Source: a virus
Direction: 5' to 3' (one strand)
DNA: 22,088 nucleotides
Virus record (IMG/VR): IMGVR_UViG_3300022074_000416
Coordinates: 1-22,088 of that record
Part shown: positions 2,051 through 21,113 of the stretch, piece after piece
Numbering within the stretch: position 1 is the first letter of the stretch
Layout: every line of letters begins with the position of its first letter
Translations under genes and position numbers: made by a program
Notes under the pieces: generated by a model
The model's database searches: none
What the model was told of the DNA's origin: nothing
The model's input: only the letters and a program-made list of their open reading frames with translations

Positions 2051-5025
2051 CGAATAGGAGAGATTCCTCGATTGTTATATGAACCCTCCCAGCTATATCC
2101 AGTGATGGATGAGGGGAAAGGGTCAGGAGCGGTGATCGTCGTTTTGACTAGGTCTCCGCTTGAGAATATAGGTACAGTTATAGTGTTGATCTCAGTCACA
2201 GGCGTAGCATCAGCGTCGTAGATGTTTGCTCTAGTCTGCTCAATACTCAGCTCAGAAGTTGGGTACCCAAGCTTGTCTACGCTCACTTGATAGCGGCCTG
2301 AGTAGTACAGGTCTAGGTAGAGGAAGGTTACCTGCGGGATGTTCACCCGGTCAGCCCGGCCTTCTTGTGTTGTGAAGATGGCGGGCAGGGTTACCCGACT
2401 CTCGTATTGAATGCCGACGATGAAGTCAGATTCAGTCAGGCGGGTATCTACTTCTAGCTGGTTAGCGTCGTTGATCTCTGGGCGGATGAACGTGCCTTTG
2501 AAATCACCAGACGTCACAACTAGGTTGTAGACCGCATCTACAAGCCTCAGGGGCTCAGGGACTTCAATGTAGGATGTCTTGTCTGTAGCAGGAGTAAGAG
2601 TTAGGTACTCCGACTCCATGTAGATATCCAGAAGCGGGGTGAACTTAGAGAAGCCCACATCCAGCGGAGCATCATCCGGATCATCGATCAACTTAGACCT
2701 AACCAGGACGTGCTGCGTTCCGTCATAGAGAACGATATGTGCCAGGTCATCTTCAGTAGCGAAGAGGTGGCATTTGGCTGGGTAGGTCCAACGGGACCAG
2801 CCTGCAAGCTGACGCTCTTCTCCATTGTTGAAGAACTTGAAGACATACACATCTTCGGTGTTATCTCCATAGAGGAGCATGTTGTTGTTGGGCATGACCT
2901 CACCCCACTCGAAGTTGGGTGGGAGGTACTCGGGGATCACACGCGTGATGTCAGCCACCACAGGACGGTTCTCCACGGAGTCCACAGCCATCTCCAACAC
3001 CTTGGAGTAAGTCTGGCTCTCAGAGATGAACGAGATCGACACGCCGGAGTTCAGCGGGAGCACCCGTGACCGGTAGAAGTAGTTGCTGATCTCTGTAAGC
3101 TTCACAGTAGACGAAGCGAATGCAATTTCACTTGAAGCCAGGAGGAACTGACTGGTCTCTGCAAATAGAATTAAACCTTTTGGGGATCCTACAGCTGCTT
3201 TCAGGATGGCAGGTTTTGTTGAGCTAGCCGTCAGGTCAATCGGATCCGCATCAGAGATGGTCAGAGCCGAGACTGAGAAGAAGTTGAAGTAATCACCAGG
3301 CTGGCTAAGCACAACCGAGTCCTCAGATAAGAAGCCGAGGCGATTGGCAAAGAAGAACATGTTGGAGATACCACGACCCACAAAGGTAGGCTCGGGGTTG
3401 CTCGTCTCATCACCAACTTCACGGGCAGCCCAGCCACCAAACGCTGAATCAGTGTTCAGAGCATCAAGGGTAAATGAGCCATCAGCCTGACGAATCAGGG
3501 CGTGAGGCATGGTGGAGGAGTTAAGGTTAGTTTTGATACCAGGAGCCACACACTCTTCCCATGCACCTGCACCTGGAATACCAGGGGACTGGGTCACAAA
3601 CTTGACGTAGTAATCGTCAGAGTCTGCGCTGTCGGTGTTGTTTACCTTGAGGGTGAATTGGTCGAAGCACTGATCGGGTAGGTCTGCAACGTCACGTGCT
3701 GCACCCTTGATAGGAGTCATCGCACTGTTGACTGCGCCACCACGAGCGCCAAGGTTAAAGTCTCGGCCATCAGTCCTGGTGATCTTGATGCAGTTACCTA
3801 CACCCTCAGCCTCAAAGTCGTCTAGGGAGTTGACACGATTAACCAACTCGCTAACCACATTGCCCAAGTCTAGGGCCCCTGTTTCGGTATCAGTGGGAGT
3901 TGTGAATGACACGCTACCAGCACCCGTAAAGGCATAGATAAAGCGCTCGTCAGTCACGCGTACTGTGTAGTTTCTACCGCCCATAGAGACGGTAGTTGTG
4001 TCGCCTTTACGCCAGCCTTGTCCACCATTCTGGAGGATGGCATCGACTGTGTATCGGGACACGTAGCGTGCATCAGAGTTGAAGCGCTGGTCTACCCTGG
4101 TCACCTTGACCTGAGTACCTTCGTCGCCCGTCAACCTCTTATCGTTGATGTCTTCTTCGGTCCACTGTGCATCCTCTACTTCTGGATACCACTCGACAAT
4201 GTTACTACCAGACCTTTCATCACGCGTCCACTTAACCTTGAATGTGTCGAAATCTTCTGTAAACGACTCATCCTTGTCAGGTTTTGGGCCAACAAGGCTA
4301 ACCCGTGTAGCCTTATACTCCGCCGTGTTATCACCTTTTAAGTAGGCTTGGCATTGGGCAACTAGGCGAAAGCTAAGGCCAACCTTATCGCCATCGTCTT
4401 TTTGGAAGTTCTGGGCATCGACCAGAGAGCACGAGCCACCATCTTCCACCTCAAACGTGCCCGGTATAACTTCGATACCAGTAGCTGAGTAGACCTTCTG
4501 CTGCTGATCATCACCATCTCTGGAGATGTCGATAGCGTAGTTAGTGTTATAGGAGACTTGGTTGATCGTTACCAGGGCTTCATTGTTGGTAACCCTGCTG
4601 AGATCAGAGGCCATGGAGACCTGACGCTTAACGTTGCTGATTAGTGTGTAATCAGAGATTGTCAGCTGCTCAATTGAATCTTTATCAGCATCCAGAAAGT
4701 AGGTGGATGCGGAGTCAGATATGGTTACGGTTCTCTCTAAGCCATCATTCAGGTCCCACACCCGGATCACCAGGTTAGATTCATTGTAGATAGCAACAGC
4801 ATAGCGCTCATTGTTATCTCTGAAGATTGGAAACCACCTAGCGGATCTAGGGACATCTGTAGCTAGCTGAGCCACCAACTCTGTGCTAGGACGCTTACGG
4901 CATCCAAAGGTGGGGTCTAGATAAACGTTCTCCGCTTCACGTACCTGTCCAGGCAGCTTCACGGGATCGGGTTGTTGTGAAACCCCACCGAGGAGGTTAG
5001 GGATCTTTTGTGAAACTGCAGCCAT
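2047..5025 (-). CDS. Tail tubular protein B, T7 gp12-like (nozzle)
   Basis: 992 residues, longer than T7 gp12 (794) but in the range I expect for cyanopodoviruses. The N-terminus (MAAVSQKIPNLLGGVSQQPD) is the typical gp12 start with the NLLGGVSQQP motif. The rest is beta-rich, with a central NRLGFLSEDSVVLSQPGDYFNF segment also characteristic of the family. In T7 the protein forms the tail nozzle and works with gp11 to complete the tail and gate DNA exit. It begins 2 bases after the tail tube A stop and overlaps the gp13-like start by 4 bases. There are no membrane segments. Identification is firm from the N-terminal motif, size and order. Confidence 0.93.
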   Translation of the reverse strand: MAAVSQKIPNLLGGVSQQPDPVKLPGQVREAENVYLDPTFGCRKRPSTELVAQLATDVPRSARWFPIFRDNNERYAVAIYNESNLVIRVWDLNDGLERTVTISDSASTYFLDADKDSIEQLTISDYTLISNVKRQVSMASDLSRVTNNEALVTINQVSYNTNYAIDISRDGDDQQQKVYSATGIEVIPGTFEVEDGGSCSLVDAQNFQKDDGDKVGLSFRLVAQCQAYLKGDNTAEYKATRVSLVGPKPDKDESFTEDFDTFKVKWTRDERSGSNIVEWYPEVEDAQWTEEDINDKRLTGDEGTQVKVTRVDQRFNSDARYVSRYTVDAILQNGGQGWRKGDTTTVSMGGRNYTVRVTDERFIYAFTGAGSVSFTTPTDTETGALDLGNVVSELVNRVNSLDDFEAEGVGNCIKITRTDGRDFNLGARGGAVNSAMTPIKGAARDVADLPDQCFDQFTLKVNNTDSADSDDYYVKFVTQSPGIPGAGAWEECVAPGIKTNLNSSTMPHALIRQADGSFTLDALNTDSAFGGWAAREVGDETSNPEPTFVGRGISNMFFFANRLGFLSEDSVVLSQPGDYFNFFSVSALTISDADPIDLTASSTKPAILKAAVGSPKGLILFAETSQFLLASSEIAFASSTVKLTEISNYFYRSRVLPLNSGVSISFISESQTYSKVLEMAVDSVENRPVVADITRVIPEYLPPNFEWGEVMPNNNMLLYGDNTEDVYVFKFFNNGEERQLAGWSRWTYPAKCHLFATEDDLAHIVLYDGTQHVLVRSKLIDDPDDAPLDVGFSKFTPLLDIYMESEYLTLTPATDKTSYIEVPEPLRLVDAVYNLVVTSGDFKGTFIRPEINDANQLEVDTRLTESDFIVGIQYESRVTLPAIFTTQEGRADRVNIPQVTFLYLDLYYSGRYQVSVDKLGYPTSELSIEQTRANIYDADATPVTEINTITVPIFSSGDLVKTTITAPDPFPSSITGYSWEGSYNNRGISPIR

Positions 5026-5680: not shown

Positions 5681-6679
5681 TCAGGCAGCCTGGAGGGAGC
5701 CAGCAACAGACACGCGCAGGGTGTCAGCACCCATGGCGAGTTTGCCCACGATCAGGTCGCCCTGATACTGGACATGGAAGTCACCAGAAGTGGTGTCGAT
5801 AGAAGGAGCGATGGCCTCAACGGTGCCAGCAGCTTCCTTATGGAACACGAGACCAGCCAGAGAGGTGCAGTCGACGTCGTAGTCGTTCTGCTCACCAGCC
5901 ACGCTGGTGCTGGAGAGGTCTTGGCCGTACAGGTCGGCGAGCACGTTGGACTTGTAGATCCGGATGCCAGCGATGCTGTAGAGACCCTTGCCGCTGTTCA
6001 TGTCACCCTGGCTGTTACCGATTTCACGGTTCAGGATGTTGGTGTCAACGGAAGAGATCAGGCTGTAGTACTGGCGGGGGCTCAGCACTGCACAGCGGCC
6101 GTCCTGGGGAGCGGAACGCTCGTCGAGAACAGCAGCAGCTTCAAAGAAGCCGTCAACCAGAGCCTGAGCATCGAGAGTCTTGCCAGATCCGATGTTCACC
6201 TGGAAGCCGCCGGGCTCACCAGTGACAACGGAAGCTTCGGTAGCGCCTTTGGCCAGCACGCGAGCAATACGCTCGTCATAGTGCAGGGCGAGGGCTTCGC
6301 CGATTTGCTTGGAGATCTCAGAGCGGGCGGACCACTGGCTGAGGATCTCGTCGAGGTCGTAGACAAACTGGCTGGAGACCAGGAGGTCATCCATCACGAT
6401 GGTCTTTTCGTTGCTCTTCAGGCCGTCAGCGGGGGCGATGGCGGTACCAGGGGTGTGGTAGCCAGCGGCCAGCTTGCCGGTCAGCAGGAACTGCTTGCTC
6501 TTACCGCCACGGAGGCTGTAGTTGCGGACCAGACCCTTGAAGATGGTGGCGTCGTTGAAAGCGTTGAACACTTCGCCGCTGAACAGCTTCAGGCTGGTTG
6601 CGTAGCGAGTGTCGTAGTTCTGGGAGGGCGTACGTGAGCCGTCGGCCACGTTGTTGCCCTGGAAGGCAGAATAAGTCAA
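5681..6679 (-). CDS. Major capsid protein, T7 gp10-like
   Basis: 332 residues if started at TTG 6679. The segment LKLFSGEVFNAFN...GGKSKQF corresponds to T7 gp10A LKVFGGEVLTAF...SGKSAQF, and the protein has the expected HK97-type capsid size. No ATG exists in frame between the upstream stop at 6722-6724 and the fold, so the start must be non-ATG. TTG 6679 gives an N-terminal arm as long as that of T7. GTG at 6649 has a better Shine-Dalgarno (AGGG, 7 bases upstream) and would give 322 residues. Codons are strongly biased to G/C third positions compared with the tail genes, as expected of the most expressed virion protein. Followed directly by a terminator. Confidence 0.93.
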   Translation of the reverse strand: MTYSAFQGNNVADGSRTPSQNYDTRYATSLKLFSGEVFNAFNDATIFKGLVRNYSLRGGKSKQFLLTGKLAAGYHTPGTAIAPADGLKSNEKTIVMDDLLVSSQFVYDLDEILSQWSARSEISKQIGEALALHYDERIARVLAKGATEASVVTGEPGGFQVNIGSGKTLDAQALVDGFFEAAAVLDERSAPQDGRCAVLSPRQYYSLISSVDTNILNREIGNSQGDMNSGKGLYSIAGIRIYKSNVLADLYGQDLSSTSVAGEQNDYDVDCTSLAGLVFHKEAAGTVEAIAPSIDTTSGDFHVQYQGDLIVGKLAMGADTLRVSVAGSLQAA

Positions 6680-19456: not shown

Positions 19457-19507
19457 TAGTTCCTGGTTTTAGTTGGTTGGCTTAGTGGAATCTGCGAGAC
19501 GCCAATG

Positions 19508-19529
19508 AAAAAGGGCCCCGAAGGACCCT
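19508..19529 (-). terminator. Rho-independent terminator downstream of attP
   Basis: On the minus strand AGGGTCC (19529-19523), loop TTCG (19522-19519) and GGGCCCT (19518-19512) form a 7-bp stem (one T-G pair) followed by five T (19512-19508). It ends transcription coming from the RNA polymerase, regulator and integrase genes and separates that module from the DNA-metabolism genes. Its core is the same as that of the terminator after the capsid gene. Confidence 0.85.
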
Positions 19530-19561
19530 CACTTCCACATAGCGCCTTGCGGCTAATTCGA

Positions 19562-19601
19562 ACCTGAAACTAGCGCGTCTACCAGATTCCGCCACATCCG
19601 C
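19562..19601 (-). other. attP: Probable attP core: 5' half of a tRNA-Leu gene
   Basis: The minus strand reads GCGGATGTGGCGGAATCTGG from 19601, then TAGACGCGCTAGTTTCAGGT to 19562. It is a tRNA-Leu from the first acceptor base through the D-arm to the anticodon loop (anticodon CAG). After that the match stops: the next bases do not complete the anticodon stem and no leucine variable arm, normal T-arm or CCA follows. It lies about 80 bases downstream of the integrase stop. The cyanophage P-SSP7 carries a similar 42-base tRNA-Leu match beside its integrase, so this is the expected integration site. The exact host tRNA was not checked. Confidence 0.8.
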
Positions 19602-19608
19602 AACGGTT

Positions 19609-19625
19609 CTCAGCGATGGGCTGAG
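19609..19625. repeat. Short perfect inverted repeat beside attP
   Basis: CTCAGC-GATGG-GCTGAG (plus strand), a 6-bp inverted repeat with a 5-base spacer, lies 7 bases from the tRNA-Leu copy on the integrase side. It could be a protein-binding site (integrase or accessory factor) or an RNA hairpin just before the tRNA half. Its role is not shown by the sequence. Confidence 0.4.
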
Positions 19626-19683
19626 GACTGAATGAAGGTAGCAGAGCGGTAAACGCGGGGTTTTTCAGAGTCATTAGTCGCGC

Positions 19684-20550
19684 CTAGATGGCCATAATGG
19701 CGGATCTAGTGGCCTCGTCAGTGGCCTTGCAATAGCGCAGGGACATGTCGATGGTCGAGTGTCCCAGCAGCTCCATCAGCGTGCGCGGATGGGCGACGGC
19801 TCCGACCCAAGTCCCGAAGGAATGGCGGAACGTGTGCCAGACGTAGTCTTCGGTAAATCCGGCGGCATGGCGAACCTTTGTGAACGCAGCGTAAAGCTGG
19901 TCTTTGTTGTTCCAATCCTCGTGAAAGAGACGAGACTGGTTCAAGCGGTTCATTACGATGCCGCGAATCTTGTCGTTGACAGGCAGCTGGCGGACCTTTC
20001 CAGACTTGGTCTGATTCCAGGGCTTACCACCGATAATGAGTTTATCGAGTGCCGGGTCATAGTCAGCCGGGCGTAGCTTGAGCAGCTCGCCTTGTCTGAG
20101 TCCGGTGTAGGCAGACACCAACATGGCGTCAGCCAGATTGTCTCCCCAGCGGTCCCCGTAGAGGTCCCGTGAGAGATACGCCAGGCGATCCACTTGGTCC
20201 TTGGTGAACCAGGTGAGGCGCTGGGCGGTTTCATCAGCCCGCTGAAATTTGGGGACCACCACGGTGTGGAGCTCCGCCATGCGGGTGAAGTTGAGGACCG
20301 TAGAGCCGGCCGAAAGGATCCGGTTGATGGTGCCTCCAGATCGTCCCTCGTCCTCGAGGGTTGATTTGAATTCCATCCACCAGCCCATGGAGCTCATTCG
20401 CTTAAGTGGAAGCGAGCGGCCGCCATATTCGGTCACGTGTCCGGCGTTGATTCCGTTGGTCTTGGCTGAACGCATCCGTTTCCAGTGCGTCTTCCAAGTG
20501 AAGTCAAACGCTTCGCCCCAGGTCTTGATCTGTGGCTTCTTGGTTGTCAT
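19684..20550 (-). CDS. int: Tyrosine-family site-specific integrase
   Basis: 288 residues from ATG 20550 (MTTKKPQIKTWGEAFDFTWK); I prefer this to a TTG at 20625 that would overlap the regulator much further. The N-terminal 100 residues look like a SAM-like core-binding domain. The catalytic set is complete: R152 (AYTGLRQGELLKLR), a Lys at 182 or 185 (KPWNQTKSGK), H239-x-x-R242 (HTFRHSFGTWV), H264 (LLGHSTIDMS) and Y273 (LRYCK). It should recombine attP, found just downstream, with a host tRNA-Leu gene. The start overlaps the regulator gene by 47 bases, so the two are one transcriptional unit. Intact, with no sign of decay. Confidence 0.95.
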   Translation of the reverse strand: MTTKKPQIKTWGEAFDFTWKTHWKRMRSAKTNGINAGHVTEYGGRSLPLKRMSSMGWWMEFKSTLEDEGRSGGTINRILSAGSTVLNFTRMAELHTVVVPKFQRADETAQRLTWFTKDQVDRLAYLSRDLYGDRWGDNLADAMLVSAYTGLRQGELLKLRPADYDPALDKLIIGGKPWNQTKSGKVRQLPVNDKIRGIVMNRLNQSRLFHEDWNNKDQLYAAFTKVRHAAGFTEDYVWHTFRHSFGTWVGAVAHPRTLMELLGHSTIDMSLRYCKATDEATRSAIMAI

Positions 20551-20980
20551 AGGCAGCAAGAGCGGCTTTTGCTTTAGGCAGGTTGGGCAAGCCTTCGCGT
20601 ACTGGTTGGGTCCAGTAGTCCTCAATGAGGTGGACGAAGGACTTTCCCTTGGGTGTCAGGTACAACCGATAAGCCTTGTAGTTGTCAGGGTCGCGTTCGC
20701 GTCTGATCAACCGAAGGCCGGATCGATGCTCCAGACGGTGACGAGGGCCAAGCCATGTCACGCAGCGGGACACCGAAGATGGGGACATGTTGCAGCTCTC
20801 GGCTAAGTTCTCCTGCTTGCAACCGTCGTGGGCCGCAATCCAGAAGAAGATCCCCATGAGCTGCGCGGGGAACTCTCGTTCTCCCGTGGACCGCATCAGT
20901 TCAACAATCGCGTGGACGCGGTAGGCGGCCTGCGAGCTGATAGGTGTGCTACGTGGCATTGGTCTAACCATGCGTCTCAT
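20504..20980 (-). CDS. MarR-like winged helix-turn-helix regulator
   Basis: About 158 residues from ATG 20980; ATG 20971 and 20959 and a TTG at 21013 are alternatives, none with a strong Shine-Dalgarno. A helix-turn-helix is clear in CKQENLAESCNMSPSSVSRC, followed by a wing of the MarR type (GLRLIRRERDPDNYKAYRLY, then LTPKGKSFVHLI). It probably binds DNA as a dimer. Wedged between the RNA polymerase and integrase genes and overlapping both neighbouring small gene and integrase, it is the natural candidate for controlling the lysis/integration choice or early transcription. MarR proteins often sense small ligands; none can be named here. Confidence 0.75.
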   Translation of the reverse strand: MRRMVRPMPRSTPISSQAAYRVHAIVELMRSTGEREFPAQLMGIFFWIAAHDGCKQENLAESCNMSPSSVSRCVTWLGPRHRLEHRSGLRLIRRERDPDNYKAYRLYLTPKGKSFVHLIEDYWTQPVREGLPNLPKAKAALAAYDNQEATDQDLGRSV

Positions 20981-21113
20981 CGAAACTAACATCCCAGAGG
21001 TAACACTCTTCAAGATGGTCAGCGACCTGGGCCAGGGTCTCGGCCTTTTCGTATTCGCCCATCTCCACGTAGGTCTGGAGCCGTTCGAGCAGGGTCTCGT
21101 TCGTAAAAGCCAT
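20964..21113 (-). CDS. 49-residue acidic protein between RNA polymerase and regulator
   Basis: ATG 21113 overlaps the RNA polymerase stop (TAATG), and TAG 20964 lies inside the start region of the regulator. The sequence MAFTNETLLERLQTYVEMGE, then YEKAETLAQVADHLEECYLW, is Glu-rich and helical, like a small helix-hairpin dimer. No family is recognised. Exact stop/start coupling with the polymerase makes it very likely to be translated. It might be an antagonist or partner of the polymerase or regulator; that is speculation from position. Confidence 0.7.
   Translation of the reverse strand: MAFTNETLLERLQTYVEMGEYEKAETLAQVADHLEECYLWDVSFDETHG

Follow-up and report, generated by a model that had tools for sequence, protein, structure and literature searches.

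Positions 19562-19601 of the 22,088-base IMG/VR record IMGVR_UViG_3300022074_000416 (the whole stretch of DNA analyzed, hereafter the window), a fragment of a T7-like Synechococcus phage, very probably constitute the phage attachment site (attP) for a host tRNA-Leu(CAG) gene, recombined by the tyrosine integrase encoded next to it. In kind, this attP is ordinary and adds one more case to an attP type already published; its D-loop allele is phage-specific. In a related prophage of the Synechococcus single-cell genome AG-670-B23, both junctions, the exchange of the host tRNA allele, and the rebuilt tRNA can be followed in the assembled sequence.

The half tRNA beside the integrase gene

The 39-mer GCGGATGTGGCGGAATCTGGTAGACGCGCTAGTTTCAGG is located at 19601→19563 on the minus strand and occurs once in the window; chance would be expected to produce none, as no copy appeared in 100 shuffles even with 3 mismatches. 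Together with the next T (19562), it corresponds to bases 1-40 of a tRNA-Leu(CAG) found by ARAGORN in Synechococcus AG-670-B23. The bases past 19562 (TCGAATTAG...) are not tRNA, the remaining tRNA half is absent from the phage, and no complete tRNA was found in the window. The core lies directly downstream of the integrase gene (int), separated by 82 bp from its end at 19684. The initial annotation, made from the DNA sequence of the window, had proposed a 40-base copy from the first tRNA base to the anticodon loop as a tRNA-Leu(CAG) attP, and the exact single match beside int bears this out; the D-loop sequence that it named, GGAATCTGGTAGA, is likewise present. The core and the putative crossover region are as follows.

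19562..19601, minus strand: attP core, bases 1-40 of tRNA-Leu(CAG) with an extra D-loop C; single exact copy
19562..19568, minus strand: anticodon-loop heptamer TTCAGGT, putative crossover region; phage-host identity ends here, and 5'-half and 3'-half attPs meet here

The same arrangement recurs in other viruses. The tRNA 3' half is missing from 85 of 86 viral loci with the core, in the form with or without the extra C, and these loci are therefore attPs. An integrase gene was found just upstream of the core in 80 of the 81 loci with enough upstream sequence. In the window integrase, alignment revealed a complete R-K-HxxR-H/W-Y catalytic set (R177, K207, H264xxR267, H290, and Y298).

Other T7-like cyanophages (L031, L034, L035, L015, L016, L017, L027, and L032) carry 5' halves at the same place after int that resemble other tRNA-Leu isoacceptors, with the anticodons TAA, TAG, and CAA.

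We propose that the tyrosine integrase recombines attP with the host tRNA-Leu(CAG) gene, strand exchange presumably occurring in the anticodon loop. On the int side, the phage 5' half would be joined to the host 3' half, and a full tRNA would be rebuilt; on the other side, the phage terminator would follow the host promoter and the host 5' half. The rebuilt tRNA would thereby be cut off from its own promoter; most likely, the phage provides a replacement, and an extended -10 element is situated about 33 nucleotides upstream. Since the phage half differs from that of sampled hosts by one extra D-loop base, integration would also replace the host tRNA allele by the phage allele. We infer that the window phage itself integrates. 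No integrated copy of it was found: the exact core is present at six viral loci and at one cellular locus, and the only junction among these belongs to another phage.

The AG-670-B23 prophage and the extra D-loop base

Contig C12 of AG-670-B23 (QCSL01000012.1; IMG/VR 2716884610_000003; loci L066-L068) contains the core twice, at 2571-2610 and at 48086-48124. The copy at 48086-48124 lacks the extra C and lies beside host DNA, forming the left junction (attL) with the host half, and the copy at 2571-2610 has the extra C and forms the 5' portion of a full-length tRNA-Leu(CAG) that follows closely after an integrase gene. The approximately 45.5 kb between them contain open frames for RNA polymerase, integrase, primase-helicase, DNA polymerase, portal, capsid, tail protein, and large terminase; the terminase is 76-81% identical to those of known T7-like cyanophages. 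The genes run from the terminase through the early genes to the RNA polymerase, an order suggesting that the two ends of the phage genome had joined by the time integration was complete. The upstream host flank is colinear over 4.1 kb, at 88% identity, with relatives having an unoccupied site. Integration thus appears, from the assembled contig, to have moved the host 5' half to the far end and to have built the phage 5' half into the tRNA. Since the extra C is found on the int side only, the crossover would have taken place 3' of the D-loop. It had been predicted for the window phage that integration would rebuild the tRNA downstream of int and leave the terminator at the other prophage end; this is the layout of the related prophage, and a terminator is found at the corresponding place in the window (listed below).

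The C12 sequence downstream of the rebuilt tRNA was considered as the native flank and rejected: C12 1-2525 was unmatched in two relatives, and a 3' tRNA half joined to native-like flank was found on contig C79. Either a further island probably follows the rebuilt tRNA, or C79 is chimeric. This downstream stretch contains a Glutamine-II riboswitch (L018 1004-1062, plus strand, 60.5 bits, Rfam). Lone tRNA-Leu(CAG) 3' halves without a 5' half are present at the start of C79 (L203) and at L204 and L205, which suggests other islands integrating at the same tRNA from its 3' side. In the prophage integrase (L066 2707-3750, minus strand), K replaces the first catalytic H of HxxR. The free relative L069 has K too, and a locking mutation of the prophage integrase was therefore rejected.

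The window core reads GGAATCTGG at the D-loop, versus GGAATTGG in the cores of S-TIP28, S-TIP37, S-CBP1, S-CBP2, and S-SRP01. On viral contigs, the C form was detected at six loci and the form without C at at least 120. The C-bearing core is common to at least four distinct phage lineages (window/L005, L004, L006/L007, and L008). Among 300 genomes of the host family, 173 possess the site, and among the matches listed, all lack the C except for one genome (G001), which is the sole one showing two site copies. With up to 3 mismatches, the C form was present in 1 of 400 host-family genomes, and no unoccupied host tRNA with the extra C was found in these 400. The exact 39-mer was located on one contig in 84,980 species genomes, that of AG-670-B23. 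In unoccupied hosts, the extra C interrupts the match to the core, leaving contiguous stretches of no more than about 16 and 23 bases. The hybrid tRNA scored 53.5 bits versus 55.8 for the native one, and the extra base is therefore structurally tolerated.

On the evidence of the AG-670-B23 contig, the extra C is the phage allele, because the displaced host half lacks it and the phage half of the rebuilt tRNA has it. The extra base as a host trait was rejected for sampled hosts, whose unoccupied tRNAs are without the C. The initial annotation had expected the extra base in the host tRNA as well; this did not hold, the single C-bearing tRNA having received this half from a phage. The exact match to a host tRNA-Leu that it had called for does exist, in the tRNA-Leu(CAG) of AG-670-B23 only, but the matching half is phage-derived and does not represent an original host sequence. 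Its rule that fewer than 35 contiguous identical bases would refute the site was too strict: hosts share about 16 plus 23, yet the same C-bearing core became integrated in AG-670-B23.

Flanking elements, opposite-polarity relatives, and neighboring genes

The surroundings of the core were compared across 91 gathered att loci, of which 53 remained after dereplication (upstream sequences less than 80% identical). The window contains the following elements.

19675..19683, minus strand: GCGCGACTA, inverted near-copy of core TAGACGCGC; proposed integrase arm site, from motif and spacing
19635..19643, minus strand: extended -10-like element TGCTACCTT (TGnTAnnnT motif), proposed promoter of the rebuilt tRNA
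19609..19625, minus strand: leader hairpin CTCAGC-CCATC-GCTGAG just upstream of the half tRNA; 6-bp stem, present in the predicted fold
19506..19530, minus strand: intrinsic terminator downstream of attP; 8-bp stem 19530-19511 plus T tail

As descriptive counts, the arm motif GCGYGWCTA was found upstream in 39 of the 53 loci (shuffles, 1.3), and TGnTAnnnT was found 20-60 nucleotides upstream in 35 (shuffles, 1.5; reverse strand, 0). In 5'-half phages having the arm motif, it is mostly located at -115/-116 from the anticodon-loop heptamer, and at -115 in the window. Leader stems of at least 5 bp were present in 29 of 53 relatives versus 10.5 in shuffles, and a terminator-like hairpin within 120 nucleotides after the core in 40 of 53 (controls, 4). 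A downstream CACTARTG motif was dropped, being nearly as frequent in the next 50 bases (17/53 versus 11/52). We infer promoter activity, the role of the arm site, and the exact crossover bases.

Three T7-like phages, L013/L209 (near 3217-3261), L208 (near 5780-5822), and L211 (near 2404-2445), display the opposite polarity, with a 3' half of tRNA-Leu(CAG) after int, followed by a terminator. The L013 integrase is 72% identical to that of the window. The extended -10 element is absent in all three, which fits the proposed model: a tRNA rebuilt by a 3'-half phage would keep the host promoter, whereas a 5'-half phage would need to supply a promoter itself. The GCGCGACTA motif of L208 precedes the anticodon-loop heptamer by exactly 115 nucleotides, the same distance as in the window, an agreement that favors the anticodon loop as the reference point of the recombination. 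In L211, the motif is at -103, off the -115/-116 spacing.

Taken together, these observations make it tempting to speculate that real T7-like prophages exist in wild Synechococcus, and that attP is a self-contained tRNA-replacement cassette composed of arm site, promoter, leader, half tRNA, and terminator. After integration, the host would depend on a hybrid tRNA-Leu with a phage D-loop and a phage promoter, and the opposite-half sister phages would rely on the host promoter. We regard this combined picture as tentative, possible but somewhat short of probable.

The main genes of the window are all on the minus strand: a partial T7-type RNA polymerase gene, a MarR-like open reading frame, and int are followed by genes for a single-stranded DNA-binding protein, an endonuclease, a primase-helicase, a DNA polymerase, and virion proteins. 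Gene names were assigned by colinearity with Synechococcus T7-like virus S-TIP28 (MZ803112), the closest annotated genome (90.8% identity over 88% of the window). In annotated relatives, a MarR-family gene precedes int. As a possible repressor for stable lysogeny, the window offers only its MarR-like frame, whose family match falls short of the gathering score. The genes nearest to the site are these.

19684..20625, minus strand: tyrosine-recombinase integrase gene, start codon uncertain; PF00589, E 1.6e-13; phrog_1 and phrog_216 integrase
20504..21013, minus strand: small MarR-like DNA-binding open reading frame upstream of int; PF01047, E 4e-4, below gathering score
21113..22088, minus strand: T7-like RNA polymerase, C-terminal part, running off the window; PF00940, E 3e-60

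Alternative explanations and known systems

Several observations weigh against the proposed attP reading. Stable lysogens were not found in published work (PMC8776855), and the near-identical locus L005 shows the same unrecombined attP as the window. The prophage is known from one single-cell assembly, a single amplified genome, and its integrase is only 32% identical to the window integrase. The promoter and arm motifs were picked after viewing the data. The -10 motif is lacking in 18 of the 53 loci; a consensus sigma-70 promoter scan gave no hit at the proposed promoter and recognized no -35 element. In L013, the nearest 3'-half relative, the arm motif is degenerate and off position at -129.

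The AG-670-B23 prophage might be an assembly artefact of an infected cell, in which the host attachment site (attB) and the attP of a free phage were collapsed via the shared core. Its origin in a single amplified genome and the non-native downstream flank, with the native one on C79, would agree with this. However, attB and attP have no exact string in common across the junction that is longer than about 27 nucleotides, and an assembly with longer k-mers would not falsely yield both reciprocal junctions; moreover, the contig is continuous into 4.1 kb of colinear host DNA at one end of the prophage and, at the other end, into the rebuilt tRNA, whose host 3' half is exact. We thus consider an artefact improbable. 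It is unlikely, if less markedly so, that the extra D-loop C is the host allele of an unsampled Synechococcus clade and not a phage allele. Several phage lineages have the C, so a common source is needed, but the lysogen is the only host genome with it among the 84,980 species genomes (exact 39-mer) and the 400 family genomes (up to 3 mismatches) searched, and even there the displaced host half does not possess it.

The site in the window might be a relic, once functional but now unused by this phage and carried passively beside int. The tRNA half is missing after int in the relatives Syn5, S-CBP42, and L014, which indicates that the site can be lost, and no junction of the window phage was found. 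A relic is nevertheless rather improbable, considering that the 40-base core departs from sampled unoccupied host tRNAs by a single tolerated insertion and is otherwise intact, that the catalytic residues of the integrase, the arm motif spacing, and the terminator are kept, and that the identical core is shared by the distinct lineages named above and by one real integration event. The promoter-like element and the terminator flanking the half tRNA in most relatives raise the question of whether the interval is also, or mainly, a small RNA gene, giving rise during lytic growth to an RNA of about 130 nucleotides that acts as a tRNA-half decoy or regulator. This appears very improbable: the predicted fold of the promoter-to-terminator RNA is not unusually stable (z -1.3), an Rfam search of the att interval yielded only sub-threshold matches and none at gathering score, opposite-half relatives without the promoter fit tRNA rescue better than a conserved small RNA, and att function accounts for the sequence identity. 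Phages pick up host tRNA pieces, and this would speak for the half tRNA being host DNA caught by accident, through imprecise excision or transduction, without any role. Such an accident is scarcely credible in view of the same place and the same boundaries, from tRNA base 1 to the anticodon loop, beside int in dozens of phages, and it is refuted for the family by the published attP deletion in S-TIP37, where the equivalent site is needed for integration (PMC8776855).

An attP for tRNA-Leu(CAG) is the reading that we carry forward, and three points add to what is known. According to published work, these cyanobacteria lack intact prophages, yet AG-670-B23 contains an apparently complete T7-like prophage with both junctions. 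Its integration replaced half of the host tRNA by a phage allele unlike that of sampled hosts. Opposite tRNA halves occur in phages with closely related integrases, the promoter-like element accompanying the half that would lose the host promoter. All three points, from the prophage to the exchanged tRNA allele and the change in polarity, merit further attention; their newness was judged against open-access literature only, and AG-670-B23 was not named in the open-access literature searched. If this reading is true, lysogeny of the supposedly lytic T7-like cyanophages becomes testable from existing single-cell reads.

Shitrit et al. (PMC8776855) described 39-bp first-half tRNA-Leu attP sites in T7-like cyanophages, showed integration at tRNA-Leu by PCR for S-TIP37 and P-SSP7, and demonstrated with deletion mutants that S-TIP37 integration requires both int and attP. 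The window shares with S-TIP37 and P-SSP7 a tRNA-Leu first-half attP beside a tyrosine integrase gene in a T7-like podovirus, but its integrase is only 33-35% identical to theirs. The cores of S-TIP37 and S-TIP28 are without the extra D-loop base, whereas the window core has one and so matches sampled unoccupied hosts imperfectly. S-TIP28 has the same order of RNA polymerase, MarR, int, att, and single-stranded DNA-binding protein as the window, although its integrase is only 65-66% identical. The AG-670-B23 prophage has the same 40-base C-bearing core at tRNA-Leu(CAG) and colinear T7-like genes with about 66% nucleotide identity in matching stretches, and differs from the window phage in being integrated, the window phage being free.
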